A stretch of DNA of 52,866 nt from a virus (IMGVR_UViG_3300007960_000032:1-52866); one strand, 5' to 3'; counted from the stretch's first letter, positions 2 through 17,683 are shown. Made by a program: numbers and translations. The notes: generated by a model not told the origin, from the sequence alone.

Positions 2-199
2 CTTGCTGATCATTTATATGTTAGTGGAATAGAAACTAAATCTGTATATCAGCAACCAATTTGGAATTTACCAGGCGCTTGTAATAATTGTAACAGACAT
101 CTAGCATTGCCATGTGATCCTTATACCACAGACCAAGAATTACTTCATATCATACGTAGTGTTAAAGAATTCTTCCAGGAACTTCCACTCGCGAGTTAA
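2..199 (+). CDS. C-terminal end of a DegT/DnrJ/EryC1-like sugar aminotransferase (partial)
   Basis: An open frame enters from the left edge and stops at TAA 197-199, giving the last 65 residues. The segment CNNCNRHLALPCDPYTTDQE followed by a helix ending in VKEFF resembles the C-terminal end of the DegT/DnrJ/EryC1/StrS family. In those PLP enzymes a short region rich in Cys, Asn and Leu leads to an 'LPxxPYxTxxE' turn and a final amphipathic helix. Such enzymes transaminate keto-sugar nucleotides, which would suit the glycosyltransferase-rich island beside it. The PLP lysine and most of the fold lie outside the window, so this is a motif-level call. Its 3' end overlaps the convergent neighbouring gene by 60 nt. 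Confidence 0.5.
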   Translation, partial: LADHLYVSGIETKSVYQQPIWNLPGACNNCNRHLALPCDPYTTDQELLHIIRSVKEFFQELPLAS

Positions 200-1384
200 G
201 TTTAAGTCCTGCCCTGAATCAATAAACCTCTGTGCATCATTAGCGCCACGCAAACTCCACTCAGCAAAATCACCTTCTGCTACAGTACACCATTGTTTAA
301 GTCTGTATCGACTTTCTATGTCATTGTTTTGTGCGAGCTTAATACACTCACGAAATGCTGTACGCCAGGTTGCATGTTTGTCTGTATTAAACTCTGCAAT
401 GCTACCCACAACAGGAACAACACCGTGTCTGGCGCTCAGTGTAAAGTCTAGTCCCCATTCATCTTGCTCTAGTACAAGTTTTTTATTGTATGCAATAATA
501 CCCATGTGGCCATATTCTAAACCTGTAACAGGATTGCGAGCATGGAAGATCCAATGTTTGTCTCCTTGCAGCCAATCTGGTTGCCAGTCGAAGTCAAACT
601 CAGGCAGTGTAACACACTTGGCAAATACATTAAAGAACCAAGGGGTATCACTAACCTCTGCGCATGCCTTGTATGCTTGTGCTCTGCCAGTAATTCCATC
701 AATTCGCTTTGCTCTAGGGCATATATCTTTTAGTATCTCCCAGTTTCTTTCAGCGTTTTTTTCACCATTTGAAAGATACACAACATCCAGTGGTTTTTCT
801 GCTATATTATGGGTATTATGACGCAAGATGTATGGGTAGTCGTAGTATTGTTCTTTAAATTGCGTTTTACAGTCCCTGGGCACTAGTAGTACACTTCCGC
901 TTTTATTAAAAACGTGTAGATTGCGTTCTTTCCACAAATTGGGGTCATAAGCTATACTTGTAGGGGTATTTTTAATCCATGCATAAAGTGTGCTGATTTC
1001 ACTCACATTCTTAACCGTAGGCCACGGTTTACGAGCTATTTCTGGCTGATTATGCCAGTTTATGTGCTCGTACCACTCAAGTAGTTTAAGCTCTTGTTCT
1101 TGCTTCTTAAAAGCACTGACAGGCACCAGGAAAGTATCGCCAAACTTCTGATCACCACTGGCCCAGCAATGTATTTGATCGGCTTCCCAGGGCACGGGTT
1201 GCCAAGTAAAGTCAAATGTTGCATAATTGCAACAGTCTGCTACAATCCACACATACTCCGTTCTAGCACGGTTAACACACCTGCGTATGGTATCCAGGTG
1301 TGTTCCGTTCCAGCGAGTGTATTCTGTGTGTGCAGGTAAGTCTACTGGTTCGTCAGTAATTTGCATGCAAAAGATATCAAACAT
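140..1384 (-). CDS. Putative glycosyltransferase-like protein with an internal domain duplication
   Basis: This 414-residue protein has no textbook motif but contains two related halves. The N-terminal part (about residues 1-110) has 'YVWIVADCCNYATFDFTWQP' followed by DQIHCWASG. The C-terminal part (about 200-320) has ERNWEILKDICPRAKRIDG, then WFFNVFAKCVTLPEFDFDWQP and HWIFHARNPVTGLEYGHMG. The second half also matches the 306-residue protein encoded at 11896-12816 (WAKRVDG, then RFILIDGDN, then FRWKARNSVNGLMYGNGG). The pattern of a sugar-nucleotide-like beta-alpha unit, an acidic strand end and a downstream HARN/KARN segment suggests a GT-A-like fold, but the DxD-type acidic pair is weak here, so catalysis is uncertain. 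ATG 1384 overlaps the stop of the upstream small gene by 8 nt. It is the last gene of the dCMP deaminase operon. Confidence 0.5.
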   Translation of the reverse strand: MFDIFCMQITDEPVDLPAHTEYTRWNGTHLDTIRRCVNRARTEYVWIVADCCNYATFDFTWQPVPWEADQIHCWASGDQKFGDTFLVPVSAFKKQEQELKLLEWYEHINWHNQPEIARKPWPTVKNVSEISTLYAWIKNTPTSIAYDPNLWKERNLHVFNKSGSVLLVPRDCKTQFKEQYYDYPYILRHNTHNIAEKPLDVVYLSNGEKNAERNWEILKDICPRAKRIDGITGRAQAYKACAEVSDTPWFFNVFAKCVTLPEFDFDWQPDWLQGDKHWIFHARNPVTGLEYGHMGIIAYNKKLVLEQDEWGLDFTLSARHGVVPVVGSIAEFNTDKHATWRTAFRECIKLAQNNDIESRYRLKQWCTVAEGDFAEWSLRGANDAQRFIDSGQDLNLTREWKFLEEFFNTTYDMK

Positions 1385-2463: not shown

Positions 2464-3948
2464 TTAACTGCATACCTTAACATTATATCGTTGTTGAAAT
2501 CTGTCTGCGTCTGCGCGGTCATTTACTACAGGCTCACCTCTAATGTTTAGACTAGTGTTTAATATAATAGGACAATCTGTCATTACATACCACATCTCTA
2601 ATAACTGCCTGGCACCTGTTTTGTCGTCTTTACCCACTGTTTGTACACGACTTGTTCCGTCAGCATGCACGATAGCAGGAAATTCTTTTGGAAACTTGCA
2701 CTCGTAGACACTCTGCATATACGGTTGATTGTCAAACTTAGGCATATCAAAATAGTCGTGTGCATGTTCTTCTAGGATCATTGGCGCAAATGGCCTAAAC
2801 TTTTGTCTGCGTTTAATTTCATTAACACGATCTTTAATGTCATCGCCTCTTGGATCAGCAAGTAAACTTCTATTACCCAATGCCCTGGGACCAAACTCTG
2901 CCCTGCCACTGGCAACGCCTACAATTTTATTTTCTATTAGTTCGCTTACTAGTTCCTCACAAGGATAGTCCCCAGGTATGTTAGTTCCTAAATAAGGACC
3001 TTGCCAGTTTAATTTCTTGCCGTAGGTCAATGCCGCCGCCCCTAAACTTGATCCACAGTCCCCAGGGTTGGGCATAATCCAAAGTCTATTCCAGATACTT
3101 CTTATCTGTGCGTTTGCTACACAATTAAGAGCAACCCCGCCCATAAACACACAAACGTCAATGTCTGGATTGCCTTCTGCTAGTTGACGCATTAGTGTAG
3201 TTAAACATCGCTCAACTACTAGTTGCCCAGCAATGGCTAAGTCTTCAGCCGGTGCATCTTTAAGAAACTCAGGATCCATACCTGCATGGAAATTCTGTGT
3301 CCAGGTTTGTTCATAATCCTCACATACAAACTCGTCATATACTTCTCTGTATTTGCTGGGATTTCCATAAGCAGACATTCCCATAAGGATATATTCTTCT
3401 TCCATGGGCTTTAATCCCACACGCTGAGTCATTGCACTGTAGAACAATCCCAGGCTATGTGGATAACGCTGGCTCATTATGCGGGTGTATTGTGCTTTTC
3501 CTCTGTTGTCATACTCAGCACGGTATGCGCTGTAAGTATCCCATTCACCAATGGCATCAACAACGACTACAATAGCCCGCTCGTAAGGACTTGTTTGAAA
3601 TCCAGCAGCGGCATGACTTAAATGATGTCTGTGATATTGGATGGGTCGGTTAACGCCTACTTCACTTAAATGCTGTTTAGGACTCTTATCAGTGAATGCC
3701 TTACGGAACTCACCGCTGTATATCTGTCTGGTTTTCTTAAGCCAGGGAGTTTCGTACCATGCTACTCTAGCAATCTCACCATGACTTAATGCTTCGTCGA
3801 TAATACCTTGATTTAAGTTAGCGTCGTTTTTTACACGACTATATCGTTCACTGTGAGCAGCAAAGAGTATATTGCCCCTGCTGTCAACAACACTAACTCC
3901 AGCGTCGTGGAACCCTGCACTCACACCTAATATATTACCTAATTTCAT
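2464..3948 (-). CDS. Carbamoyltransferase, NodU/CmcH family
   Basis: This 494-residue protein has the two-domain layout of O-carbamoyltransferases, which transfer a carbamoyl group from carbamoyl phosphate, through carbamoyl-AMP, to a sugar or antibiotic hydroxyl. The N-terminal Kae1/ASKHA-like domain shows ILGVSAGFHDAGVSVV (residues 6-21), AHSERYSRVKND and the metal-binding HHLSHAAAGF (108-117), then GGVALN near 270. The C-terminal domain shows FGPRALGNRSLLADPR (near 353) and NTSLNIRGEPVV near the end. The length is slightly shorter than NodU (about 560-600). Start and stop abut both neighbours (TAAATG each side). Co-transcription with glycosyltransferases and radical SAM enzymes points to decoration of a sugar. 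The acceptor is unknown. Confidence 0.92.
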   Translation of the reverse strand: MKLGNILGVSAGFHDAGVSVVDSRGNILFAAHSERYSRVKNDANLNQGIIDEALSHGEIARVAWYETPWLKKTRQIYSGEFRKAFTDKSPKQHLSEVGVNRPIQYHRHHLSHAAAGFQTSPYERAIVVVVDAIGEWDTYSAYRAEYDNRGKAQYTRIMSQRYPHSLGLFYSAMTQRVGLKPMEEEYILMGMSAYGNPSKYREVYDEFVCEDYEQTWTQNFHAGMDPEFLKDAPAEDLAIAGQLVVERCLTTLMRQLAEGNPDIDVCVFMGGVALNCVANAQIRSIWNRLWIMPNPGDCGSSLGAAALTYGKKLNWQGPYLGTNIPGDYPCEELVSELIENKIVGVASGRAEFGPRALGNRSLLADPRGDDIKDRVNEIKRRQKFRPFAPMILEEHAHDYFDMPKFDNQPYMQSVYECKFPKEFPAIVHADGTSRVQTVGKDDKTGARQLLEMWYVMTDCPIILNTSLNIRGEPVVNDRADADRFQQRYNVKVCS

Positions 3949-4151: not shown

Positions 4152-4253
4152 CTATTTGTAAATAAAAGGATCTCTTTTTTTCAATTCTTTTAACCGTTTG
4201 CGGTATTGTATTTCCATTTTAATTCTGTTAATAATATTCTTAAGCCATGTCAT
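4152..4253 (-). CDS. 33-aa basic amphipathic peptide
   Basis: A 34-codon frame starts at ATG 4253, inside the end of the upstream radical SAM gene (14-nt overlap), and stops at TAG 4154-4152, just before the next ATG. The product starts MTWLKNIINRIKMEIQYRKR and ends in KKRDPFIYK. It is strongly basic, probably a single helix, and has no cysteine. The 'RxKxLKEL+KRDPFIY' ending looks like a short protein that recurs in marine T4-like phages, from memory rather than from a search. The position directly after a radical SAM gene also leaves open a role as partner or substrate, although nothing in the peptide proves that. Confidence 0.6.
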   Translation of the reverse strand: MTWLKNIINRIKMEIQYRKRLKELKKRDPFIYK

Positions 4254-5523
4254 CTGATATCTCTCCCCACCATGTAGATAACGCCTCATTGTCCAGGATG
4301 GTTTCTTCAAAAGTCATTCCTCCTCTAATAGTGTCTAATTTTTTAATTCTTTGCTTGCCCTGTATTCTTGCCTCTTGGAATGAATCAGGAAACTCTTCTT
4401 CAAAAGTAGGGCGTGTTACAAGGTTATTTAACACATCCTTTAGCGCCCTGTGATTTATTTTTGGTAGTACACTATTAATTATGCTTTCAAGAATGTCTCT
4501 GGGTAGAAACAATGGACTCATTGCTATGCTGGGATCAAAAGCAAAACACACTTTGGCAAGAATGTCCACATTAAGATCGTCTGCTAGTTTGCACATATTT
4601 TCCAGTTCAAATAGTCCTGGTGTGGTTAATGTAAAATCTAAGCGCATCTGGCGACGGTGACGGGCATGAGTTATACCTTGTTTAAAGTTTTCTAACCATG
4701 AATCGTATTTTAATCCAGTACGTATATACTCTCCTACCGGACCAGTGCCGTCAATACTAGCACATACCTGCCAGTCTCTAATGTTGTCTAATATGTCAGT
4801 GTATAAGTTAATGCCTTGATAGTCTACACGGCTTAGGTTTGTATTGTATCTAGCATATAACCCAGGGCCGTCTCCTAGTTCAATAATACGTTGCATGTAT
4901 CGCCAGTGTTGTTCGTACATCAGAGGCTCGCCACCAACCCAGTATATTTCCTCTATGCGATGTTCTTCTACAGCCTGACTAAACTCAGCCTCTATTTGTG
5001 TATCTTGATAGTTGCTAATTTGTTCTTTTACTGCTGGCTCCATCCAAGGTTCTATTTTACCTTGTTTACGAGCTTCTGTTTCCCAGCTACTTGATAACAT
5101 AGGGCCACACATACGACATTTAAAGTTACACAGGTTACTGAAACGATAGTCCCAGCTAATGGGCTTCATTGTAGTATATCCAGTTTCGTCTGTAGTTTTT
5201 AAAATTTGATCATACTTGTGACCAAACATTTGCCAGAAGTAACTGCGATATACATCAGTGTTCAGTAACTTGTTATTACATACTTCACATTCGGGAGGCA
5301 CAATGTTGTTTATCATATCACGCCTTACTCTACGGATACGTTCACTATTCCAATACTCATCTAAACTTTGCGGAGTGTATACGTTATCACCAGCATCTGT
5401 GTCAATGTATTGTGTAAAACTCTGTGCAGGTTCTCTGCTCGCACAACATAGACGTCTTTCTGTGACAGGTGACAAATACGTGTGAACCCAAGGTGCCATG
5501 CAGAGGCTATCTGGTTTATTCAT
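4240..5523 (-). CDS. Radical SAM protein with N-terminal twitch-type domain (array member 1, group A)
   Basis: 427 residues from ATG 5523 (an upstream in-frame TTG at 5529 is less likely). The radical SAM cluster motif CNFKCRMC (C132, C136, C139) binds the [4Fe-4S] cluster that cleaves S-adenosylmethionine, and WVGGEPLM near 196 is the usual GGEP SAM-binding element. The N-terminal region has CMAPW (C8), LCC (C26-C27) and CEVC (C79, C82), the pattern of a twitch domain carrying an auxiliary cluster. SIDGTGPVGEYIRTGL is the barrel strand seen in all six paralogues. It is the last of the six radical SAM genes to be transcribed and overlaps the preceding one by 8 nt. The substrate is unknown. 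BtrN-like sugar dehydrogenation or peptide modification are both possible for this superfamily. Confidence 0.9.
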   Translation of the reverse strand: MNKPDSLCMAPWVHTYLSPVTERRLCCASREPAQSFTQYIDTDAGDNVYTPQSLDEYWNSERIRRVRRDMINNIVPPECEVCNNKLLNTDVYRSYFWQMFGHKYDQILKTTDETGYTTMKPISWDYRFSNLCNFKCRMCGPMLSSSWETEARKQGKIEPWMEPAVKEQISNYQDTQIEAEFSQAVEEHRIEEIYWVGGEPLMYEQHWRYMQRIIELGDGPGLYARYNTNLSRVDYQGINLYTDILDNIRDWQVCASIDGTGPVGEYIRTGLKYDSWLENFKQGITHARHRRQMRLDFTLTTPGLFELENMCKLADDLNVDILAKVCFAFDPSIAMSPLFLPRDILESIINSVLPKINHRALKDVLNNLVTRPTFEEEFPDSFQEARIQGKQRIKKLDTIRGGMTFEETILDNEALSTWWGEISDDMA

Positions 5524-6703
5524 AGCCAATCATTTTTGCTACTTCAGGATGAGTTTCAGCGAATACAACACCACGTTGAATATCAGTCTGATCTAACTTC
5601 TTTCTCAGCGCCTCTCCTGTGTTTGCGTTGTCGTCGTTTAAACTAGTCATTGCAAACTCTTTAAGACTAATGATCCGATCCTTGTATTGCGGATGCAGGA
5701 TCTGACATTTTTGTAATACTAACATTAACGGTGATACCATGGCCTTGGGTAACTTGGATAAACTAAACTCCTCTGGGTCGTGCATTAGATTAAAATGTAT
5801 GTCGTCAATGCCACTGGTTTTTGCCCAGGTTAAGAAATCGTTCATATAAAAAATGTTTTGAACATTCCAGGTAACGCAGATCTGAAAACTTAGTGGATAC
5901 CCTTGTTCTTTTAATGCTAGGAATTTCTTAATATTACGGTTAACTGTAGCCCACTTTGCTCCGTCGCGTTCATATTCAAACCGTTCACCTACATTGTCAA
6001 TGCTAAACGCAATCTGAACATGTTTAAAGTTTTTCCATACTTCAAGTTGCTTGGGGTATTGTGTACCGTTTGTGTTATAGTGAATATCAATATCTTTAGC
6101 ATATCCCGATTTAGCAGCACGTTCTAGTAAATCAAAGTGTTGCTTGATTAGAAATGGCTCACCGCCGGTAAATTCAAAATATTTAATATCAGGCAGAATA
6201 CTGTCAACATGTTCCCAGAACTTCTTGCTCTTGCGGGGCCATTGTCCTTGTTTAAGCCATTGGCTGGCAATATTTTCTTTACCATGTTGTGCTATTTCTT
6301 CCTGGGCCCACTTACTTGAACTCCAGGATCCGCAAATACGACATTTTAGATTACATATGTTTCCTAGCTTTAAGTCCAGGAATTGTAGTGTTTCACCTTC
6401 TAAATTGGTGTAGTCAACTTCCACATGTTTAAACTTTTCCAACATGTATTCACGCTTGCTTTTCTTGCCAGCCTTCTCTTCTGACCAGCACCGTTGACAC
6501 TGCCCAGGTAGTTTATCTTCGCTAAATGCTTTCCTCAGTGACTTCATATAAGGACTGCGGAATGCTTCTTCAAGTGTATTTTTATTTAAATCAATATCAG
6601 GAACTTCACCAACTGCTAAACAACAAGGCCTAACTTGGCCCAGGGGTGTCGTCTCTAAACTAATCCAGGGAAGAATACATTTTCCTCCATACTCTCTAGC
6701 CAT
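5516..6703 (-). CDS. Radical SAM protein with N-terminal twitch-type domain (array member 2, group A)
   Basis: 395 residues, the shortest of the six. The radical SAM motif is CNLKCRIC (C117, C121, C124), with FTGGEPFL following near residue 177. The N-terminal cysteines are CILPW (C9), RPCC (C27-C28) and CQRC (C69, C72), with the same 18-residue step from first Cys to CC as its group A sisters. SIDNVGERFEYERDGAKW corresponds to the substrate-side strand. ATG 6703 lies 8 nt inside the upstream gene. The C-terminal segment (…RGVVFAETHPEVAKMIG) parallels 'ENFFEVFPELARL' of member 3, so the two are clear paralogues rather than one frameshifted gene. The substrate is not predictable. Confidence 0.9.
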   Translation of the reverse strand: MAREYGGKCILPWISLETTPLGQVRPCCLAVGEVPDIDLNKNTLEEAFRSPYMKSLRKAFSEDKLPGQCQRCWSEEKAGKKSKREYMLEKFKHVEVDYTNLEGETLQFLDLKLGNICNLKCRICGSWSSSKWAQEEIAQHGKENIASQWLKQGQWPRKSKKFWEHVDSILPDIKYFEFTGGEPFLIKQHFDLLERAAKSGYAKDIDIHYNTNGTQYPKQLEVWKNFKHVQIAFSIDNVGERFEYERDGAKWATVNRNIKKFLALKEQGYPLSFQICVTWNVQNIFYMNDFLTWAKTSGIDDIHFNLMHDPEEFSLSKLPKAMVSPLMLVLQKCQILHPQYKDRIISLKEFAMTSLNDDNANTGEALRKKLDQTDIQRGVVFAETHPEVAKMIGYE

Positions 6704-7988
6704 GTTCTTTTAACCTCGCTAATTCTGGAAATACTTCAAAGAAATTTTCGTTTCTAAACTTATCCAAGTGATTTAATTTTTCCAATAATTCAGGAATCAG
6801 ATGACTGTTGTCCTGTTGTGTCATATAATTAACCGCTGCCATATATCCTTTGCTTGCTCTGCTAAACTCATCAATGGGAGTAAGGTATTCAATGTGAGCG
6901 TTAAACTTCTCAACTACTTCTTGTTTCATTGCTTCTGGTAATACATCGATTCTATAATACTCTGGGCTTTGCAATATATTAATATTCCAATCCATGGGAC
7001 GCAATAATCCCAGTTCAACCCATTCCTTGTGGAAGTCTGGAATGTGAAAGCTGTTCATAATACTTAACGTTGAGCTGACGTAAAAGTCTACAGTAGGGCA
7101 TACTTTCAGCATCTCTTCTCTGTTTTTAACTGTCTGTGCCCACTTAGTGCCTTTACGCATGAGCTCTGCTCGCTCGTGGCTAGCATCTAAACTTGCGCCG
7201 ATGCTAACACACTCAAACTCATTCCACAACGGAAGAACACTGCTACCTTTGAATACCAGTTCTGTAAAGTTGGTGTTATATACTAGTTTGACGTCTGTGC
7301 GACCTTGCCTCAATAACTCATTCAATAAGTCGTAGTGCTCTTTCATCATCAGCGGTTCACCACCGGCGAAATATACTTCTTCAATATAAGGAATATGCGG
7401 CAGTAGTTGTTCCCAGGCATCTGTTTCAGTCTTACCAGCATAACTTACATTTGGTGCGTCCTTAGGCAGCCAGTTCATTAATTTGGCTTCTTTAACCCAA
7501 TTACTACTAAACACATCGCCGCAACTACGACAGGACAAGTTACACAAATTACTAAATCGGACATCATAATAACGAATTTTAAACTCGTCATCGTCTATTG
7601 TTTTAATGTGATGTCCAAATGTTTGGTTACTGCTATTTCGCATACTAAAGAACCCTGATTCTTCTTGCTCATAGCATTTGTTACACACTTCGCTCTTGCA
7701 TTCAGTAACCATGTTCTTACGAAGATCTTGCATGGGTTTATCACGCCAAATCTCTTCCATGGTGTTTTCTCGCAATGAGCCAACATGGTTCTCATACTTT
7801 GCCAAACAACAAGGATAGGCTCTGCCGTCTGGATATGCATGCAAGTGTATCCAGGGTAGAATACAAAAGACATCACTTTTGACCAGGAGATCTCGTTCTT
7901 TGTCAGTAAGTTCTTCAGGTTTGATTTTAAGTGGCATTCTCTGCCCGTAATCATAATCACTGTAGTAGTTTTCTAGTTTATCTGTCAT
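6696..7988 (-). CDS. Radical SAM protein with N-terminal twitch-type domain (array member 3, group A)
   Basis: 430 residues. It differs from its sisters by a 30-odd residue N-terminal lead rich in Tyr and Asp (YYSDYDYGQRMP). The twitch-type cysteines follow: CILPW (C42), YPCCLA (C60-C61), and C102/C105 in VCNKC. The radical SAM motif is CNLSCRSC (C149, C153, C156), then YFAGGEPLM near 208. SIGASLDASHERAELMRKG is the conserved internal strand. The start forms an ATGA overlap with the upstream gene, typical of translational coupling. All expected cluster ligands are present, so it should be catalytically competent. The reaction is unknown. Confidence 0.9.
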   Translation of the reverse strand: MTDKLENYYSDYDYGQRMPLKIKPEELTDKERDLLVKSDVFCILPWIHLHAYPDGRAYPCCLAKYENHVGSLRENTMEEIWRDKPMQDLRKNMVTECKSEVCNKCYEQEESGFFSMRNSSNQTFGHHIKTIDDDEFKIRYYDVRFSNLCNLSCRSCGDVFSSNWVKEAKLMNWLPKDAPNVSYAGKTETDAWEQLLPHIPYIEEVYFAGGEPLMMKEHYDLLNELLRQGRTDVKLVYNTNFTELVFKGSSVLPLWNEFECVSIGASLDASHERAELMRKGTKWAQTVKNREEMLKVCPTVDFYVSSTLSIMNSFHIPDFHKEWVELGLLRPMDWNINILQSPEYYRIDVLPEAMKQEVVEKFNAHIEYLTPIDEFSRASKGYMAAVNYMTQQDNSHLIPELLEKLNHLDKFRNENFFEVFPELARLKEHG

Positions 7989-9238
7989 GTTTTTTCAATC
8001 ACTAATTCAGGCCATAATGTTCGCCAACTTGTATTTCTTCTTCTATCTATCTCGTCGTGGTATCCATGTAGTTTTTCTATTGCCTTGTAATTATTCTCAG
8101 TATTAGTTTGCATAACATCTTGCAATCCAGTAAAGATTTTTACCGTTTCCTGTTGTTGAAATGTGTCTGTTTTCAATTCTTTAAATATCTCTTTCCAAAC
8201 TGGTTCCCAGATTTCATACGCAAAAATCTCAGGACGCATGAAAGGATATCCGTCTACTAACATTGCATAATGACCAATGTGTCTATTAGTATTATACTTG
8301 TTAATCATACGGATTAAATCAGGCATAGTTTTCATGGTTAAGCTACTTACGGTTTGATTTGCAGATAAGAATAAAAATTCTTCTGGAAAACTTGCAGCAT
8401 ACGCAAAGTTCTCTTCAAACTCTGTACAGTTTAATCCAAATCTAACATATTCTGCATGCGCCCCCCAACAATCAATACTAGCTGTTAGATCAAATCTGCC
8501 AATGCATCCTTTTTTCCACAGCTCATATATAGCGTTAATGTATTTTTTAAAATATTTCTGCGGGGGATTAAAGTTGCTAAAGATATTAAGTTGCAGGTTA
8601 GGACAGGGTTTTCTTTCTACTAAATCTAAAACTCTAGTTATCAAATCATGCTGAATAAAAGTTTCTCCGCCTAGTAGGTGGAGCCGCATAAGTCCCTGTA
8701 TATTATCTTCTAACCATACAAAGAAATCTTCGTACCTCTTATCAACTACGGCATTGTTTAGATCTTTTACAGGACTAAAAAGTGCATGATCGCCAAAACT
8801 TCTACTTTCTTGTTCAATTCTGCTACTTAACATTGGGTTGCAGTATGTACACTTAAAATTACAAGTATTATGGGCAAATATCTCCACAATAGTAGGCTTT
8901 ACATTGGTTAATGTCTGGTCATCTTTAAGTTCAGTGGGAGCATATCCTGGCAAATCGTTATTATGCATCCTGTCACTAAACCCTCCAGCATCTTCAATTA
9001 CTTTACAATATTCGCAGCCTTGGCCTGGCCACTCTCCTTTAAGCATCTTTTCACGGTGGACAATCTTTTCAGGCAAGTTATGAAAACTACCAAAATTATC
9101 CTCGGGTATCTTAAAGTCATCTACTCTATGACAACTACTGCTAGTTCCAGAATTAAGCCATATAGTACTCCAGGACCATTTGCTCTGACAGGCAGTCTCT
9201 GTCTTTATTGGAAAATAATAATCTAAATCCTGTGTCAT
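7985..9238 (-). CDS. Radical SAM protein with variant N-terminal cysteine domain (array member 4, group B)
   Basis: 417 residues from ATG 9238, which overlaps the upstream stop as ATGA; a TTG at 9253 is a weaker alternative. The radical SAM motif is CNFKCTYC (C126, C130, C133) and the GGEP element is altered to LLGGETFI near 190. The N-terminal ligands follow a second pattern shared by members 4-6: CxxKW (C17), SCH (C36) and CEYC (C75, C78), a 19-residue step to a single Cys instead of 18 to a CC pair. TASIDCWGAHAEYVRFGL is the conserved barrel strand. The Cys pattern and CNP after the motif place it with members 5 and 6. The substrate is unknown. Confidence 0.88.
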   Translation of the reverse strand: MTQDLDYYFPIKTETACQSKWSWSTIWLNSGTSSSCHRVDDFKIPEDNFGSFHNLPEKIVHREKMLKGEWPGQGCEYCKVIEDAGGFSDRMHNNDLPGYAPTELKDDQTLTNVKPTIVEIFAHNTCNFKCTYCNPMLSSRIEQESRSFGDHALFSPVKDLNNAVVDKRYEDFFVWLEDNIQGLMRLHLLGGETFIQHDLITRVLDLVERKPCPNLQLNIFSNFNPPQKYFKKYINAIYELWKKGCIGRFDLTASIDCWGAHAEYVRFGLNCTEFEENFAYAASFPEEFLFLSANQTVSSLTMKTMPDLIRMINKYNTNRHIGHYAMLVDGYPFMRPEIFAYEIWEPVWKEIFKELKTDTFQQQETVKIFTGLQDVMQTNTENNYKAIEKLHGYHDEIDRRRNTSWRTLWPELVIEKT

Positions 9239-10563
9239 AGTGTCATGTACCAATCTTTTAACTCTGGAAATGTTGTTTCAAAGTTTTTGTTTCTTCTTAC
9301 ATCATATTGTTGGTAGAATTGTTTAAAATCATTGTGTAGTTTAGGCATTTCAAATGCTTCGTTGTGTGGTGTCTCTACTGTGTGCAAATATTCAATAAGT
9401 CTCTCAACTTGCCCTCGTTCAAAATCATGTAAGTCCCAGGATAGTATCGCTTTTAACCTGCCTGCACATGTGTTTTTAACATTCTGTGGTAATACTAAAC
9501 AACTTTGAAAACTAGGAAATCTAAGAATATTTAAACTAAACACTGCAAAGTCTTTGTTTAACTCTTGTCTAGCATGCAGTATTTTAAATATTAAGTCTGG
9601 GAGTGTGTCCAAACAAAGTGCATTAACTGTCATCATGCAATGTGTATCTATACCAGCTTCATGTAGTCTTACTAAGTTATCCCACCAGCTATTAAAGTCT
9701 AATCCATCTCTAATGTACTCTGCTTTAATTCCTGTAGACTCACAACTAGTATATACATCCAGACTAGGCAAGTGTGTTCTTGCTTCAACTAACCGATCAA
9801 TTAACTCTGGTTTACCACCTAGGTTGCTGTTAATAGCGATACGGCAATCTGATGTATTACCCTCTTTCTTAAACCAATCCAATAACTTCCAAAGCTCAGG
9901 GCTCATAATAGGCTCACCACCAGTAATGCGTAGTTCACGCAATGTAAGGTGTAAGTCACTGTCCCACCATTTAAAGAACGCTTCCACATAAGGATTGTAT
10001 TCGTTTAATCCAAATAGTTGGTTGTTATCATGACTATGAGTAAAATGATTGCGTCCGTCACTAACAAGATCAGTATAGCCGCCATTGTTCTTTAAATCCT
10101 TTACCCAGGTAGTACTAAAAGCAGGATTGCAATAGCTACAAGCAAAGTTACATGTTCTGTCAAAGGCAATCTCTAGTGTGCGTAGATTGACATCTTCTTC
10201 ACTATCAGTTTTATAAAACTCTTGCAATTCTTGTTCAGTATAAATCTTTGACTTGTACACACGGTCGCTTATATATTTAGGGCCCATGTCTTCAATCTTC
10301 CAGCAGTATTCACAACCCGCAGGACGCTCGCCACATTGCATTTGTCTGCGCTGTTCTTTTTTCTCTGGAGTATTGTGTAGGAGTTTAGGATTAGATTGCA
10401 CTGCTATTGGATCAATCTTATGAGGCAGTGGATGATGACAACTAGTAGTCATACCACTGCCCAACCAAATAGTAGCATTGCCCCATTTCGCTCCGCAAAA
10501 ACTCGCACTCTTAGTATCAAGTACTGTTTGTTTGTATTTAAGATCTGTTAGCTTTGTATTCAC
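9235..10563 (-). CDS. Radical SAM protein with variant N-terminal cysteine domain (array member 5, group B)
   Basis: 442 residues from a GTG start at 10563, 26 nt inside the upstream gene. N-terminal ligands: C23 in CGAKW, C42 in TSCHHP, and C84/C87 in GCEYC. The radical SAM motif is CNFACSYC (C138, C142, C145), followed by RITGGEPIM near 218 and CESTGIKAEYIRDGL. The N-terminal block 'TIWLGSGMTTSCHHPLPHKI' aligns residue for residue with member 6, showing recent common ancestry. The C-terminus has RRNKNFETTFPEL, matching RRGTNFLKTFPEM of member 6. All cluster ligands are intact. The reaction is unknown. Confidence 0.88.
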   Translation of the reverse strand: MNTKLTDLKYKQTVLDTKSASFCGAKWGNATIWLGSGMTTSCHHPLPHKIDPIAVQSNPKLLHNTPEKKEQRRQMQCGERPAGCEYCWKIEDMGPKYISDRVYKSKIYTEQELQEFYKTDSEEDVNLRTLEIAFDRTCNFACSYCNPAFSTTWVKDLKNNGGYTDLVSDGRNHFTHSHDNNQLFGLNEYNPYVEAFFKWWDSDLHLTLRELRITGGEPIMSPELWKLLDWFKKEGNTSDCRIAINSNLGGKPELIDRLVEARTHLPSLDVYTSCESTGIKAEYIRDGLDFNSWWDNLVRLHEAGIDTHCMMTVNALCLDTLPDLIFKILHARQELNKDFAVFSLNILRFPSFQSCLVLPQNVKNTCAGRLKAILSWDLHDFERGQVERLIEYLHTVETPHNEAFEMPKLHNDFKQFYQQYDVRRNKNFETTFPELKDWYMTL

Positions 10564-11902
10564 ATGTACTCCAAAATTCTGTCATCTCTGGAAACGTCTT
10601 TAAAAAGTTAGTGCCTCTTCGGCGATCATGTTCGCTAAAGAAACGATAAAAGTCTGCTTGTTTGCGTTCAACGTCTGTTGTTCTATGGAGCATCCAGTCT
10701 AAGTCACGTTGCATCTTTAAAACTTCATAGTCCTTAAATCCATGCATTTCGTGAAGATTGCTATTCATATATTCTACACACTCCTTGAGACAAATGCTAT
10801 AACTTTCTGGTAAGATTTGCAGGCTTTGCCATTCTGGAGTGTACAGTAAGGGTGTATCAAACCAAATCCGCTGATAAGTCGTCGTGTAAGTCTGACGAAG
10901 ATACAGGATATGCTCTAGTAACTTTTTAAGGTTTATAATGTTAAGATTGCTCATTGTAATAATGAACGTTAAACTTGACCGACTGGGAATATCTCTAACA
11001 AACTCTTCACATCTATTTATTGCCAAATTAAAATCTAACCCGTGTCGTATATACTCTGCTTGCTTTCCCCAGGTATCTAAACTAACAAACTGCATGAAGT
11101 GTTCTATTTGTTCACCTTTACATAACTCTTGCACATACCCTTTGTACTTGTCCCAGACCATGGGATCAACACTAAAGTTACTGGTAGTGTTTAAATGCAA
11201 GTCAGGTTTAGGATTTTCGAGTACATAGTCAAATACACGATAGGTGTTTGGGTCCATGGTAGGTTCACCACCTGTCATACGGAAATGTTTTAGATCTTTG
11301 TATAGGTCAGGCCACCAACGCCAGAATGCTTCGCGGTAAGGATTGTCCTCCCTGTTAGGAATAGCACGTCGAGATCCTGTAAAGTGTACAGGGTCATTGT
11401 GTGGAGTACTAGTAGGCCAAGCACCGTGTTCTTTTGCTTCTTTAGTCCAGGTGCTGCTAAATTGTGGACTACAATAGCTACAACTAAGATTGCAAGCATT
11501 GTTAAAGTTTACTTCAACATAACTTGGGTTGACATCTGCTTGTGGGTTATTTACAATGTCCTCAAATGAGTCCATAGCCCAGGGTTCACCGCTGCGATAA
11601 TGTCTGTCACTCATGTTATCTTGTGCTTCAATATTCCAACAGTAGTTGCAATCTGTACACTTTGTACCAGACATCATTTCCAGACGACTTTGTTTCTTGT
11701 GTGCAGTGTTATGCAAGGCACTGGGATTATCCGCCAATGGCTCAACAGGTATGCGATGCAAAGGAGGATGATAACAACTGTTGGTATGCCCAGTTGTTAA
11801 ATGTAGACTAACTTGTTTCCATTTAGCTAAACAAAAACTATCACTTACTGTGGCAAGTTTTTCTTTTGCTAACTGAGCATCATTAAAATAATCGCTCACC
11901 AC
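10538..11902 (-). CDS. Radical SAM protein with variant N-terminal cysteine domain (array member 6, group B)
   Basis: 454 residues, first of the six to be transcribed. The start is one of two adjacent GTG codons (11902 or 11899; the second gives a GTGA overlap with the upstream stop). Ligands: C24 in CLAKW, C43 in NSCYHP, C85/C88 in CNYC with an extra C82, and the radical SAM motif CNLSCSYC (C137, C141, C144). FRMTGGEPTM follows near 210 and SLDTWGKQAEYIRHGL is the conserved strand. It follows a glycosyltransferase-like gene with no gap. Complete ligands suggest an active enzyme with an auxiliary cluster. The substrate cannot be read from the sequence. Confidence 0.88.
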   Translation of the reverse strand: MVSDYFNDAQLAKEKLATVSDSFCLAKWKQVSLHLTTGHTNSCYHPPLHRIPVEPLADNPSALHNTAHKKQSRLEMMSGTKCTDCNYCWNIEAQDNMSDRHYRSGEPWAMDSFEDIVNNPQADVNPSYVEVNFNNACNLSCSYCSPQFSSTWTKEAKEHGAWPTSTPHNDPVHFTGSRRAIPNREDNPYREAFWRWWPDLYKDLKHFRMTGGEPTMDPNTYRVFDYVLENPKPDLHLNTTSNFSVDPMVWDKYKGYVQELCKGEQIEHFMQFVSLDTWGKQAEYIRHGLDFNLAINRCEEFVRDIPSRSSLTFIITMSNLNIINLKKLLEHILYLRQTYTTTYQRIWFDTPLLYTPEWQSLQILPESYSICLKECVEYMNSNLHEMHGFKDYEVLKMQRDLDWMLHRTTDVERKQADFYRFFSEHDRRRGTNFLKTFPEMTEFWSTCEYKANRS

Positions 11903-12816
11903 CCTTCGACCTTTCTAATAACTTCTAGTTCTGTAGTCATTGGGTCATGTTCATGATAGGTCTGACTGTAATAGTGTTTAAAGAATCGACTCACGTCTCC
12001 GGTATAGTCAACAATGGGGAGCAATAATTTTCGTCTAAGAATTGCTCCCCATTCCTGGTATTCATCCACTGTGTAATCATGTTCTTCCCAGAGACGATCC
12101 AACGCTGCAAAGTCTCTGACTTCATGCCAATCCCAATCGGTACACATTAGCTTGTAGGTGCCATACCTTGCACCCACCATTGCTTCGAACCCGTATTCGC
12201 TATCTTGACCCACACTTTGCCAAATACACAATTTGTCAAAGTTCTTAGCATGAACTTGTTTGTGGAATTCTTCTAGAGTAGGCTTGTATCCTTTGTTAAG
12301 ACACATCTTAACACCTTCTCTAAATCCTGCTCGCCATGCATGTCGTGCACTGCCATTAGGATAGGTAGTTGAGTAAACATTATTCATGGGAATGTATTTG
12401 CTGTCAAAGCAAAACTCAACTACTGTTTCGTGTGAACCATCAGTTGCTTCGTGTGTTTGCATGTTATTGATAAACTCACGAGTCCAGCAACTAAGTCCGC
12501 CGTTGCCGTACATAAGTCCGTTAACTGAATTACGAGCTTTCCAACGGAACACACAATCCTCGTGCTCAGGCTTAATATCTAACTGTAAGTTAAAAAAGCT
12601 AGCATCGGGAATATTATCGCCGTCAATGAGAATAAAGCGTTCAGTGTCACTGGCTGCGGCTGCGGCTTTGTGTGCTGCATCTGAACCTTCAACTCCGTCT
12701 ACTCGTTTAGCCCAGGGCACAATGTTTTGTATTTGAACCCAGAACTCTTCTTTCTTTGGTTCATCGTACGTCAAAAAAATCGTGTCCATATCCGCTGTGT
12801 CAATCAGCATCGTCAT
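11896..12816 (-). CDS. Putative GT-A-like glycosyltransferase
   Basis: 306 residues. The N-terminal half has MDTIFLTYDEP, WAKRVDGVEGSDAAHKAAA and RFILIDGDNIPD. The IDGDN segment at the end of a hydrophobic strand is a good DxD-type metal/nucleotide-sugar site. It continues with FRWKARNSVNGLMYGNGGLS. These blocks match the C-terminal half of the 414-residue protein at 140-1384, which has lost the DGDN residues, so this copy is more likely the active form. ATG 12816 has GAGG upstream; an internal ATG at 12789 is possible. It overlaps the upstream gene by 17 nt and is followed directly by the six radical SAM genes. Confidence 0.6.
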   Translation of the reverse strand: MTMLIDTADMDTIFLTYDEPKKEEFWVQIQNIVPWAKRVDGVEGSDAAHKAAAAASDTERFILIDGDNIPDASFFNLQLDIKPEHEDCVFRWKARNSVNGLMYGNGGLSCWTREFINNMQTHEATDGSHETVVEFCFDSKYIPMNNVYSTTYPNGSARHAWRAGFREGVKMCLNKGYKPTLEEFHKQVHAKNFDKLCIWQSVGQDSEYGFEAMVGARYGTYKLMCTDWDWHEVRDFAALDRLWEEHDYTVDEYQEWGAILRRKLLLPIVDYTGDVSRFFKHYYSQTYHEHDPMTTELEVIRKVEGW

Positions 12817-13144
12817 TTAGTTCCTCTATACAAAAATATGGATTATTTTCTAATACTAGTGCAGGCGGCGGATCTTGCCAGTGTGTTTGTACACTAGTAT
12901 CAATCCAGGTAATCTTGCCATCAATAATTCTATGATCGATAGGATTGTGCAGGGCTGTGTCTTGTGATATTATAATGTAGTCTTCTTCCCAGACTTCGTT
13001 AACAGGAACAGTATTAGCATCTTCAATCTTATACTCACCAGTTTCTACATTATATTTTAGTCTTCGTTCAGTTTCAATAACTGGATTAGATTCCACAAGC
13101 GCAAATGCTTGTAAAAATGGATTAGATTCCAAGTCGTTGTTCAT
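12800..13144 (-). CDS. Hypothetical protein, 114 aa
   Basis: An acidic, soluble protein of 114 residues without a recognised family. It is rich in predicted strands, with 'VETGEYKIEDANTVPVNEVW', YIIISQDTALHNPI and IIDGKITWIDTSVQTHW. The N-terminus (LESNPFLQAFALVESNP) repeats an 'ESNP' element, and a third copy-like segment, ENNPYF, lies near the end. No Cys cluster and no membrane segment. It overlaps both neighbours (23 nt and 17 nt), both glycosyltransferase-like, so it is probably co-translated and may serve the same pathway. Function unknown. Confidence 0.75.
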   Translation of the reverse strand: MNNDLESNPFLQAFALVESNPVIETERRLKYNVETGEYKIEDANTVPVNEVWEEDYIIISQDTALHNPIDHRIIDGKITWIDTSVQTHWQDPPPALVLENNPYFCIEELNDDAD

Positions 13145-14018
13145 ATCTACCTATCAGTTCTTCAGTGCAAAAATCTTTCTGGAAATAGTGGAAGGGGTAA
13201 TGCTGTGCGTATCCGCCTACTACAAAATCAAAGTCGTTGGTTAAAGTCCATCTAACAGAGTTGCGCCAATCCCAGTCTGGTTTCCAACCATTAATAGCAC
13301 CTTTCATGTGGGCAAAGGTTGGATAACTCATTGGCCCGATAGGCTGTTGAGCGATCCCGGTTTGCCGGGCATGGGCATGGTCACTGATGTTATTTCCGCT
13401 GGCCCAGATGGTTCCAGCAATGCCAAATATAACATCAGTATCAGGTGTGTCATAAAAACAATGATCAAGCACCCCATCTCTAAGAGCAGTAAAGTTTTCA
13501 AGAGTCCTGGTTGCAAGATTAAAAAACTCTTTGCTATCCCTGGAATAACGAAAATACATAAAACCGTTATAAACATCAGCCAGATTATTAGCATCAAAAA
13601 ACTTCCTGTAATACCTAGTATTACTTATTTTTCCTTGATAATTTCTCACCTTGGATGTCATTACTACATCACTTGTTCTACAGCCAGCCCACCAATGATC
13701 AATGTTTCTGGGGATCAGCATATCTGATTCTACCTTAAACGTTTCTGTAAAAGGAGTTAAACTCCACGCCTGGCATTCGATTGCGAAAGGATTTTCTTGC
13801 CTGGGCACTTCAATAATATAATCAAATACCCGGCGCTGGGTGTCTGTTAGTGTTTGTGCAGAGTCATGATCTATTACTACTGCAAACTTATTTATAGTGC
13901 AGGTAGCCTTAACACTCAACGCCAGCAAGTATGCTTGATTAACATAGTTAACTGTGTCACTGTTCTGTGCAAATGTTAACCAGCCCTGCGGTTCTACTTT
14001 TTTCTTAAACATCAGCAT
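13122..14018 (-). CDS. Putative glycosyltransferase (GT-A-like)
   Basis: 298 residues. The N-terminal part has the alternating strand/helix order of nucleotide-sugar transferases: WLTFAQNSDTVNYVNQAYLLALSVKATC, then FAVVIDHDSA, then a YIIEVP strand. The centre has ETFKVESDMLIPRNIDHWW, where the ESDM residues sit at the place of a DxD motif. The C-terminal part is rich in aromatic residues (GWKPDWDWRNSVRW, FDFVVGGYAQHYPFHYF). ATG at 14018 or 14012 lies within the end of the upstream gene. Neighbours on both sides point to sugar transfer, but neither donor nor acceptor can be assigned. Confidence 0.55.
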   Translation of the reverse strand: MLMFKKKVEPQGWLTFAQNSDTVNYVNQAYLLALSVKATCTINKFAVVIDHDSAQTLTDTQRRVFDYIIEVPRQENPFAIECQAWSLTPFTETFKVESDMLIPRNIDHWWAGCRTSDVVMTSKVRNYQGKISNTRYYRKFFDANNLADVYNGFMYFRYSRDSKEFFNLATRTLENFTALRDGVLDHCFYDTPDTDVIFGIAGTIWASGNNISDHAHARQTGIAQQPIGPMSYPTFAHMKGAINGWKPDWDWRNSVRWTLTNDFDFVVGGYAQHYPFHYFQKDFCTEELIGRYEQRLGI

Positions 14019-14787
14019 ACCGTTCTAACTCGCCCCTGATCTCTGGATCCATTAAACAGGCTTTGTTCATTATGTGCAGGTTTGTATCCTTGATCTTTAA
14101 TGCATTATAAGATCCATGATATTGATATTTGATAAACAACTCACTGCCATGTACTTTATAGATTGTATCCATGGTGCTTAAACTTGGCAAGGGATGATTA
14201 AATGTTGTGCCTTGATCATATCCCTGCATGAGTTGATGAGCGAGTGTAAGACTAAAATCGTTACGATATTTACTTCCTGGAAATCCCCAAAATTTACAAT
14301 GGTATCGCCAGTTAGTTTGTATATTCTTCATCATTTCAAATATGTTGTATGCTAGTTCACACTTGCGGAAATAAACAACAGTTGCCCATAGCATGGGATG
14401 GCCTGCTCGTGTCATATATCTTTCATGCTTCATACTGTCGGTATGTGTAACGTCCCAGACACGGTCATAACACAAAAACTCGTGATTACCTCCAAAGTAA
14501 TCTTTGAGTTGATTATTAAAAGTCATATAGTCTACGTCTATTAACAGTGTTTCTTCAAAGGGCGACAAATCATACGCCAGCGGACGATCTGAGTTAAACC
14601 ATTGCACACGGTCTATTGTACCATCGTGCCATTTAAACGCACGGATGTTTCCAGGCCGTGCTTCACCGATGTGTATGTGCGTGTCAATACCCAGATGCTT
14701 TTCCACTAGTTTTGCAGCAAGTTTAGCAAAACCTATATAATCTATAGTATCATGTGGCGTGGCAAGTAATAGTGCGCCTTTACTCAC
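14005..14787 (-). CDS. Putative glycosyltransferase (GT-A-like)
   Basis: 260 residues from a GTG start at 14787 overlapping the upstream stop. The N-terminus ALLLATPHDTIDYIGFAKLAAKLVEKH is a strand plus helix that would hold the nucleotide. LSPFEETLLIDVDYM (about residues 76-90) has a hydrophobic strand ending in DVD, the classic metal-binding DxD placement, and HIMNKACL near the end could supply the C-terminal His of such folds. ERYMTRAGHPMLWATVVYFRK is the expected central block. Together with the next gene it makes two adjacent glycosyltransferases near the head of the operon. Specificity unknown. Confidence 0.6.
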   Translation of the reverse strand: MSKGALLLATPHDTIDYIGFAKLAAKLVEKHLGIDTHIHIGEARPGNIRAFKWHDGTIDRVQWFNSDRPLAYDLSPFEETLLIDVDYMTFNNQLKDYFGGNHEFLCYDRVWDVTHTDSMKHERYMTRAGHPMLWATVVYFRKCELAYNIFEMMKNIQTNWRYHCKFWGFPGSKYRNDFSLTLAHQLMQGYDQGTTFNHPLPSLSTMDTIYKVHGSELFIKYQYHGSYNALKIKDTNLHIMNKACLMDPEIRGELERYADV

Positions 14788-15106
14788 TAAGTTGACCTAC
14801 TCTACGAACTTTTTTAAGTTCCTGATATTGATTATGCCAATCGTTCATTACTTCATACCAGCGTTGTCTACATGCTACCAGCATATCAGTAGCATCTACA
14901 ATCTCTACAGGATTTTCATATGAATCTACTAGATATAGGATGTCATTCTCTGGCCAAGTAGCAAGTAACGCCATTAGTTCAGTGGTTACAAGAAACATTC
15001 CACCAGCATATGCCAGTGTTAGACGTTGCTCTTGTTGTTCTTTAAGGGCTAGCCGTTGTCTATTATGATCAAGTCGTTGTCGTGCAAACTCTTCAAAGTT
15101 TTCCAT
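14780..15106 (-). CDS. Small hypothetical protein, first gene of the accessory operon
   Basis: 108 residues, first gene after the operon promoter, with AGGGA 8 nt before ATG 15106. The N-terminal half is a charged, probably coiled helix (RQRLDHNRQRLALKEQQEQR), followed by MFLVTTELMALLATWPENDI and VDATDMLVACRQRWYEV. The layout loosely resembles short tail-fibre assembly chaperones of the DUF4376 type that follow fibre genes. The fibre module ends just upstream, so such a role is possible, but no diagnostic motif is present. Its stop overlaps the GTG of the first glycosyltransferase gene. Confidence 0.65.
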   Translation of the reverse strand: MENFEEFARQRLDHNRQRLALKEQQEQRLTLAYAGGMFLVTTELMALLATWPENDILYLVDSYENPVEIVDATDMLVACRQRWYEVMNDWHNQYQELKKVRRVGQLSE

Positions 15107-15143: not shown

Positions 15144-15172
15144 AGTATAACAGGGCCCGTAGGCCCTGTCAA
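15144..15172 (-). promoter_or_regulatory. Sigma70 promoter of the glycan/radical SAM operon, with palindromic spacer
   Basis: On the minus strand TTGACA (15172-15167, perfect consensus) is separated by 17 nt from TATACT (15149-15144), with an A-rich stretch upstream that could act as an UP element. The spacer together with the last bases of the -35 box is a perfect inverted repeat, ACAGGGCCTACGGGCCCTGT (15169-15150): 8-bp arms around TACG. This could be an operator bound by a repressor. It precedes the 15106-1990 operon. Confidence 0.75.
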
Positions 15173-15195: not shown

Positions 15196-16170
15196 TTAGG
15201 ATTCACTGTTCGCAGTCTGTGACCAAGTAGGTGATCCCCACGTGCTTGTAATATAAGTTGTTGCTGCTGGTGTTGCAGTAAATGTTGATGTTTTTGTTCC
15301 ATCAACAATATCAAGAACGTTATAAAAGTTTTTATCGAAAGCTGTTTGATCAGCAGCATCGTCTTTCCATGTGCTTGTAAAAGTAAGAACTGCACCCGAA
15401 ACACTGCCATAAACCTCAATATAGTTGGCTGTATATGGTCCAGTGTCTTCCAGTTGTTTGAAGATCGAAGCCGGTGTGCCGGTAAGACCATCAAAACCAG
15501 TTGTCATCTGTGTTGGAGTGTTTCCACCGCCACCAACTTTGCCACTGGTTCTACCAAACAATGTATATGTACCACAATCTGAAGCAAGTGTTACCCAGTT
15601 TTGATACTTTGTATCCTGGAAAACTGGTCCAGTTGATGGACTTGATGCTGGATCAGTTGGACCTACTGATGTAGTTCCGCCAGCAAGCCCCCAACTAAGT
15701 TCAATTTTACCACCTGCGTTAAAATAGTAACGCATTTCGTCTGCACTAGCAAAAGTAAATGTTTGTGTGTGGGTAATTGTGTTGGTGAAGTTACCGCTTG
15801 ATGTACTGGTAGCTGTAATTGGTGTACCAAAACCAGCAGCATTTGTTCCTGCGGCCGCACTGGTATCAAGTGTAGCAATATCTGTTGCCAAGTTAGCAAC
15901 AATTGCAATAGTGTCAGTAGCACTTGGGTTAGTTACACTGTCAACAGTGATGTTGCCATTGTTTCCCTGGTGGTTACTAATGCTTTTAAGTCTGGTTAAC
16001 AGTGTTGCCCATTGTGAAGCTGTAACTGTGTTACCAGCTGACACTGAGCTAAGTACAGTGCTTTGTCCTAATCCACGAACACCAGTACCTGTACCCCAAA
16101 TTGCGTTAACACTAGTTACGAAACCGTTGTAGTGTGCGTCGAGGATTGTATCCCCAGCTATATATGCCAT
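15196..16170 (-). CDS. Virion structural protein (fibre-associated, putative)
   Basis: 324 residues, last gene of the late fibre module. The N-terminus 'MAYIAGDTILDAHYNGFVTS' resembles the start of short structural proteins next to tail fibres in marine T4-like phages. The middle is rich in Ser, Thr, Gly and Ala (NPSATDTIAIVANLATDIATLDTS), and the C-terminal half alternates aromatic strands (TFTFASADEMRYYFNAGGKI, YTLFGRTSGKVGGGGN), typical of a beta-rich virion protein. AAAGGAAT precedes the ATG. The assignment rests on composition and position; no enzymatic motif is visible. Confidence 0.7.
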   Translation of the reverse strand: MAYIAGDTILDAHYNGFVTSVNAIWGTGTGVRGLGQSTVLSSVSAGNTVTASQWATLLTRLKSISNHQGNNGNITVDSVTNPSATDTIAIVANLATDIATLDTSAAAGTNAAGFGTPITATSTSSGNFTNTITHTQTFTFASADEMRYYFNAGGKIELSWGLAGGTTSVGPTDPASSPSTGPVFQDTKYQNWVTLASDCGTYTLFGRTSGKVGGGGNTPTQMTTGFDGLTGTPASIFKQLEDTGPYTANYIEVYGSVSGAVLTFTSTWKDDAADQTAFDKNFYNVLDIVDGTKTSTFTATPAATTYITSTWGSPTWSQTANSES

Positions 16171-17675: not shown

Positions 17676-17683
17676 TATTTATA
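17676..17683 (-). promoter_or_regulatory. T4-type late promoter (distal)
   Basis: TATAAATA on the minus strand, an exact match to the T4 late -10 element. It overlaps the stop codon of the HNH endonuclease gene, so it reads into the fibre gene. Confidence 0.6.

Follow-up and report, generated by a model that had tools for sequence, protein, structure and literature searches.

The stretch of DNA analysed here, referred to below as the window, comprises 52,866 bases of viral sequence from IMG/VR (IMGVR_UViG_3300007960_000032:1-52866). It is a genome fragment whose minus strand carries six radical S-adenosylmethionine (SAM) genes between positions 11902 and 4240, which we named A to F in the order of transcription. 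All six match family NF033640 (N_Twi_rSAM): A, the first of the series (10538..11902, 454 aa, 312 bits); B, from the sister group of A (9235..10563, 442 aa, 304 bits); C, an optional member (7985..9253, 422 aa, 216 bits); D (6696..7988, 430 aa, 383 bits); E, with a SPASM domain (PF13186) at its N-terminus (5516..6703, 395 aa, 333 bits); and F (4240..5529, 429 aa, 288 bits), which starts with TTG at 5529 or possibly with ATG at 5523. The original prediction of six complete, paralogous head-to-tail genes overlapping by 4-26 nt was confirmed, as all six open reading frames (ORFs) are complete, successive overlaps from A to F measure 26, 19, 4, 8 and 14 nt, and the paralogy is borne out by the shared family and the tree described below. 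The window also encodes T4-like structural proteins (baseplate wedge, hub and virion proteins), a late sigma factor and SbcCD-like proteins, and a DNA search of it against GenBank phages gave no match. Because its baseplate wedge is nearest to those of giant myoviruses, e.g., Sinorhizobium phage Phosso and Agrobacterium phage Atu_ph07, and because the contigs of cassette-bearing relatives reach 347 kb, the source is probably a jumbo phage.

The assignment to the radical SAM enzymes agrees with the family scores and the predicted folds. NF033640, the NCBIfam model for twitch domain-containing radical SAM proteins with an N-terminal twitch, has a curated cut-off of 170 bits, and a search against radical SAM subfamily models, as had been recommended with the original prediction, placed all six proteins above it (215.8-382.6 bits). 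With PF04055 alone, F, E and B passed, D was borderline, A fell below the cut-off and C was silent, while PF13186 matched the N-terminus and not the C-terminus of D, E and F. In the alignment of the six, the CxxxCxxC motif, the GGEP element (GGET in C only) and four N-terminal cysteines are invariant, and the seven cysteines (three of the cluster and four of the twitch) are 100% conserved in every group of about 400 homologues from 80 viral loci; the six-gene motif pattern is therefore not a chance occurrence. The AlphaFold models of D and A (mean pLDDT, the per-residue confidence score, 93.7 and 94.0) found radical SAM enzymes as their best PDB matches, with CteB at the top, then anSME, and BlsE also present for D, and viperins, anSME, BlsE and AprD4 for A. 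The query-normalised TM-scores, a measure of fold similarity, were low (mostly 0.25-0.38), as would be expected if the matches span only part of the protein. Thus, both the radical SAM identity and the twitch-type extra cysteines of the earlier proposal have held up, the four cysteines being invariant in all groups, and instead of structures without a SAM-cleaving barrel, which would have spoken against the identity, the A and D models match radical SAM folds. The sequence match to BtrN was weak (E 0.006 and 0.027), with BtrN residues 163-238 aligning to the N-terminus of the window proteins, and these proteins fall outside the BtrN-type sugar dehydrogenases, a sequence family with a C-terminal twitch. 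Viperin-like nucleotide chemistry was also considered, since viperin is among the sequence and fold matches, but it was rejected because the prokaryotic viperin model scored 15-30 bits against a cut-off of 180.

The distribution of the genes was followed in two samples, which overlap somewhat and are biased to near relatives (best 80 matches). A search with the six-sequence alignment, anchored on F, gave the best 80 viral loci with 405 usable homologues, and a second sample, anchored on A, drew on at least 600 confirmed matches in IMG/VR, from which 47 contigs with enough flank were counted; a genome scan with the six-sequence alignment led nowhere, as the alignment was too divergent. The tree of homologues divides into two superclades, A/B/C and D/E/F, and each window gene lies in its own group, mostly with one copy per locus, although the outer borders of some groups, especially E, are only modestly supported. 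The tree indicates that the six are ancient orthologous groups and not recent duplicates; recent tandem duplication was rejected, since the mean identity between groups is only about 19-32% and each group is orthologous across phages. Among the 47 A-anchored contigs, B and D were present in all, E and F in 46 and C in 3, and C homologues numbered 14 in the best 80 F-anchored loci. The conserved gene order that the original prediction had suggested looking for in viral genomes was found, with A, B, D, E and F fixed in essentially all A-anchored contigs; A-B-D-E-F is the commonest arrangement, and a variant, A-B-D-F-E, recurs. That one phage carries six such genes had been called remarkable, and six are indeed present, but they are not a rarity, as five or six are normal in this phage group and some contigs hold 19-21 family members. 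Extra copies of the family come and go among loci. In two relatives, open frames of 851 aa (L022 7438) and 818 aa (L027 8834) apparently contain two radical SAM units each, so that some paralogues are fused.

The genes are under purifying selection. Even in comparisons with the nearest orthologues, the synonymous sites have reached saturation (proportion of synonymous differences, pS, 0.74-0.83; of nonsynonymous differences, pN, 0.10-0.34), and no internal stops were found among the matches listed in 36 relatives. The idea that the genes are pseudogenes was rejected on the basis of the invariant cysteines, the lack of stops in those matches and a pN far below the saturated pS; the copies in relatives are intact, contrary to the pseudogenisation that had been named as a possible refutation. 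The identity matrices of the radical SAM groups correlate with one another at 0.64-0.87 and with that of the adjacent carbamoyltransferase at 0.56-0.80, and these were the best correlations obtained. We interpret the cassette, from its conservation across hundreds of related viruses, as a real and widespread virus pathway.

The transcription unit appears to be larger than the six genes. Its upstream boundary lies between f9, which encodes a tail-fibre block protein and is outside the operon (15196..16170, minus strand), and f8, the first operon gene (14780..15106, minus strand; 42 of 47 contigs). A sigma70-type promoter, TTGACA-17-TATACT with an extended -10 and 11 of 12 matches (15144..15172, minus strand), is proposed to drive f8 to F. 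Among relatives, a sigma70-type site agreeing at 10 or more of the 12 positions, in most cases with 17 bases between its two elements, was found at the f9-f8 junction in 49 of 82, against about 1.5 expected from shuffles, and a stricter scan located such sites before 39 of 90 f8 starts versus at most 2 of about 145 A or B starts. In many relatives the -35 element is TTTACT, which resembles the T4 early element GTTTAC (PMC1524935). GC-rich hairpins with a T-rich tail occur at 35 of 79 f9-f8 junctions (1.5 hairpins expected from shuffles) and at none of nine other junction types, and the median junction gap from f8 through f3 is -4 to -19 nt. The T4 late promoter, TATAAATA (PMC1524935), was found 8-110 bp before 20 of 104 ORFs of the tail-fibre-like gene f13 and almost never before radical SAM genes, and its count within the window alone was not above chance. 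In our reading, a single early and translationally coupled transcription unit extends from f8 to F or beyond, and the operon is probably expressed early because the terminator and the sigma70- and T4-early-like promoter set it apart from the late virion genes. Joint transcription with the late virion genes, which the fixed link to f13 and f9 had suggested, was dropped after the terminator and promoter were found at the f9-f8 junction. The operon structure of the original prediction is thereby supported, but its limits of 4240-11902 hold only for the six genes, as the unit would start at about 15150, upstream of the gene at 14780-15106. A perfect GC-rich inverted repeat (15150..15169, no strand assigned) fills the spacer of the f8 promoter, and the same place holds a perfect repeat in L169 and a nearly perfect one in L168; many relatives have a terminator hairpin after f9, just upstream of the site where these three have the repeat. 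The repeat could be an operator.

The neighbouring genes, all on the minus strand, are rich in functions related to sugars. Downstream of f8 follow two glycogenin-like (GT8-like) glycosyltransferase genes of one family, f4a (14005..14787) and f4b (13122..14018), and the family profile weakly matches 19 glycogenin sequences (E 0.003-0.02). A small variable protein of 114 aa (12800..13144) lies between f4 and f0; it has a positional homologue in 32 loci including the window, most with a YRxYYDxxG-like core, and in a survey of ORFs of at least 80 aa in relatives it proved kept in place and variable in sequence, with no obvious RiPP-like (ribosomally synthesised and post-translationally modified peptide) character. 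The glycosyltransferase-like f0 (11896..12816), recognised by a DxD-type motif only, precedes A, and a second member of its family (140..1384, 414 aa) clusters with it. Upstream of the cassette, f13, f9, f4 and f0 are present in all 47 A-anchored contigs, and f13, which resembles tail-fibre proteins, stands with f9 immediately upstream of the operon. Beyond F lies an O-carbamoyltransferase of the NodU/TobZ/NovN type (2464..3948), with both the Carbam_trans_N and Carbam_trans_C domains (PF02543 and PF16861) and matches to the TobZ, NovN and GdmN structures (PDB novobiocin carbamoyltransferase E 1e-47, TobZ 8e-35). In relatives, the cassette is accompanied by a DegT/StrS sugar aminotransferase and an NAD-dependent epimerase, by an amidinotransferase closest to inosamine-phosphate amidinotransferase and, from inspection of the sequence, by a UDP-glucose-dehydrogenase-like gene. 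The glycosyltransferase and carbamoyltransferase neighbourhood noted originally is thus substantiated by the f4 pair, the TobZ-type enzyme and the counts in 47 contigs.

Several other features of the window were observed. A Na/Pi-cotransporter of 157 aa (PF02690; 1990-2463), shorter than known phosphate transporters, follows the carbamoyltransferase. One ORF of 4559 aa (22168-35847, minus strand), immediately following the gene for the baseplate wedge, is exceptionally long and presumed to be structural. Of two homing-endonuclease-like genes, one (17679-18251) separates the tail-fibre gene f13 from the gene of the f24 protein, and the other lies at 50776-51231. A gene between the SbcD-like and SbcC-like genes (48268-48972) has SGNH-hydrolase-like motifs by inspection (GDSFT and HPxxxxH), and its family recurs within the radical SAM cassette of relatives.

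Radical SAM enzymes need iron-sulphur clusters, and some relatives carry genes for their supply. An A-type Fe-S carrier (PF01521) was found in 10 of 26 relatives searched. Each of the six cassette-bearing contigs in this set that measure 220 kb or more has one, and five of these six also encode an IscU/NifU_N protein, one IscU gene being split in two. Neither PF01521 nor IscU/NifU_N was present in a 239-kb contig for which the locus retrieved shows D-type copies only. These genes agree with T4-like marine genomes in which A-type carriers and IscU have been reported, one of them with 12 radical SAM genes (PMC5332604).

The family also occurs in cultured phages and in cells. Against GenBank phages, D matched only Vibrio phages K566 and K567, with three copies each, and one short single-cell contig, and A had no match by tblastn; in K566, a GT8-like gene between two of the copies and a GT-B-like gene beside them were named by inspection. 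Cellular members are found in Bacteroidota, Bacteriovoracaceae, Elusimicrobia and others, with many copies in Elusimicrobia fused to repeats that are TPR-like by consensus. Five contigs of the genome set (L086-L090) resemble phage contigs binned into metagenome-assembled genomes (MAGs); apart from these, two Oligoflexia/Bacteriovoracaceae contigs are the only cellular ones with members of the A/B/C superclade. Among the genes close to the cellular members are GDSL hydrolases (9 of 116), GT2, carbamoyltransferases and sugar-nucleotide genes. GDSL lies outside the 25 commonest families far out and perhaps alone looks specific to the near neighbourhood. Two cellular cases stood out. In the Elusimicrobia MAG MJ-2014_bin-0981 (L093-L116), N_Twi_rSAM genes number in the dozens, are joined to long TPR-like arrays and often follow one another along entire contigs. 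L111 (Bacteriovoracaceae UBA6144) carries seven N_Twi_rSAM genes in a nearly tandem arrangement, some of which belong to the A/B/C superclade that is otherwise viral.

Taken together, we propose that the operon encodes a dedicated phage pathway in which radical SAM enzymes remodel the sugars of a phage-directed glycan early in infection, a proposal, with its presumed glycan substrate and surface target, to which we give about even chances. One early operon would comprise f8, the two glycogenin-like glycosyltransferases, the small protein, f0 and A-B-(C)-D-E-F; after F, most relatives continue with f3 and the O-carbamoyltransferase. In each radical SAM enzyme, the CxxxCxxC [4Fe-4S] cluster would cleave SAM and abstract hydrogen, and one auxiliary N-terminal twitch cluster, presumably occupied, would handle the electron. 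Five or six non-redundant enzymes may act on successive or different sugar positions by dehydrogenation, epimerisation or deoxygenation, as do twitch/SPASM-type enzymes in aminoglycoside-type pathways, while the adjacent glycosyltransferases would build the glycan and the carbamoyltransferase would decorate it. A glycan is the likeliest substrate because glycosyltransferases, carbamoyltransferase and sugar-tailoring enzymes accompany the set; early expression favours the host surface over the virion as the place of action, and the likeliest target would be a host surface polysaccharide, e.g., to exclude rival phages. More tentatively, the five or six enzymes could rework the sugars in turn as a phage-specific early pathway, giving a sugar structure new with respect to cells and drawing on the phage's own Fe-S supply. 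A multi-step radical pathway on a glycan, as originally predicted, remains our best inference; its family, operon and neighbours stand, and its substrate is a supposition. The other reading offered there, a separate substrate for each of the six enzymes, could also hold.

Some observations weigh against a glycan. The fold matches include the peptide modifiers CteB, anSME and SkfB besides the sugar enzymes BlsE and AprD4, so the fold does not choose between substrates. The f4 profile matches glycogenin weakly (E 0.003) and no Pfam family at E 0.01; f0, f2 and f3 gave no PDB, Pfam or PHROG identity, and f8 matched no characterised family. The aminotransferase, epimerase and amidinotransferase were seen in relatives and not in the fragmentary window. 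In cellular loci, GT2, PhyH, epimerase and sugar-nucleotide families are also common at least six genes away, which served as a control, so that close linkage in cells is not specific, GDSL perhaps excepted. The main rival is that the radical SAM enzymes modify tail-fibre or host proteins, in the manner of RiPP maturases or anSME, and together with the glycosyltransferases decorate a virion protein encoded just upstream. This would suit the best fold match of D, the sactipeptide maturase CteB, followed by anSME, the constant adjacency of the block to f13 and f9, with the late TATAAATA box before f13 in some relatives, the TPR-like fusions of Elusimicrobia homologues and the small protein conserved in place just upstream. 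However, the operon has its own early-type promoter and a terminator that cuts it off from f13 and f9, the small protein shows little conservation and no clear RiPP character, and small-molecule sugar-tailoring genes go with the set; we consider protein modification unlikely.

Early timing would equally fit a pathway that hypermodifies phage DNA, on a base or a base-attached sugar, for protection from nucleases; T4-like phages glycosylate their DNA, and some known pathways of base hypermodification include radical SAM enzymes. This is nevertheless improbable, as the thymidylate synthase/dCMP hydroxymethylase family (PF00303) is absent from 11 of 16 large cassette-bearing contigs, themselves fragments, its hits in the other five (E 1e-96 or better) look like thymidylate synthase, and base-modification genes were not recognised among the window genes scanned. 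Hydroxymethylcytosine DNA modification in particular was disfavoured, the dCMP hydroxymethylase family being missing from most large relatives. We attach a similarly low probability to the operon making a diffusible small molecule, either aminocyclitol- or antibiotic-like or a nucleotide-like signal, against rival phages, bacteria or host defence: the carbamoyltransferase, amidinotransferase, sugar aminotransferase and radical SAM enzymes resemble aminoglycoside gene sets, and viperin-like enzymes and AprD4 are among the fold matches of A, but neither a scaffold synthase nor a dedicated exporter was recognised in the window and paired glycosyltransferases fit a glycan better. Lastly, the genes might be an ordinary set of unrelated auxiliary genes, each serving its own host substrate, that came together by chance and stayed side by side, which the identity of only about 20-32% between groups and the coming and going of extra copies could suggest. 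A joint pathway is favoured over this very improbable assembly because essentially all A-anchored contigs keep the set A, B, D, E and F and its order, one promoter precedes the set, and the genes are translationally coupled and correlated in evolution. If the glycan pathway exists, its fixed complement of radical enzymes would be unusually large for a virus; such phages would remodel host surfaces by a large unexplored radical sugar chemistry, and this would help explain why they carry their own Fe-S assembly genes.

Among the closest known systems is NF033640 itself, which shares the N-terminal twitch and the radical SAM barrel; the model is named by domain only and gives no function, and a literature search on it found no papers, whereas here a phage operon contains five or six distinct members as a fixed cassette, which gives this family a defined candidate pathway. 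The sugar and cyclitol enzymes BtrN, AprD4 and BlsE share the radical SAM core, BlsE and AprD4 as fold matches and BtrN as a weak sequence match; their identity to the window proteins is below 20%, the likeness is known here from sequence and models alone, and the matched twitch of BtrN is C-terminal (chain residues 163-238) instead of N-terminal. The glycosyltransferases of O-antigen-converting phages resemble the proposed outcome, a phage-directed change of the host surface glycan. To our knowledge, the O-antigen conversion systems described so far attach sugars or acetyl groups and use no radical enzymes. The SPASM peptide maturases CteB, anSME and SkfB are similar in that the fold of D matches CteB and anSME best, but they have a C-terminal SPASM domain with seven or eight cysteines (PMC5682303), as against an N-terminal set of four here, where no precursor peptide was recognised. 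Phages with multiple radical SAM genes and radical SAM cassettes in host-recognition regions have been noted before (PMC5332604, PMC7029224, PMC7150976): according to the accessible parts of the reports, the T4-like marine genome TARA_ERS488813_N000010 has 12 radical SAM genes and an A-type Fe-S carrier (PMC5332604), and the pelagimyophage host-recognition cluster holds radical SAM cassettes near tail-fibre and glycosyltransferase genes (PMC7029224). In open-licence papers we found no description of the orthologous quintet, its spread over at least hundreds of contigs, its operon boundary, its early-type promoter or its function. Those accessible parts give counts or cassettes only, and the orthologous groups, fixed order, operon boundary and joint-function hypothesis are added here; with a fixed five-member core that is present in at least hundreds of uncultivated phage contigs and joined to one regulatory region, the numerous radical SAM genes of marine phages become a single defined candidate pathway that can be tested.

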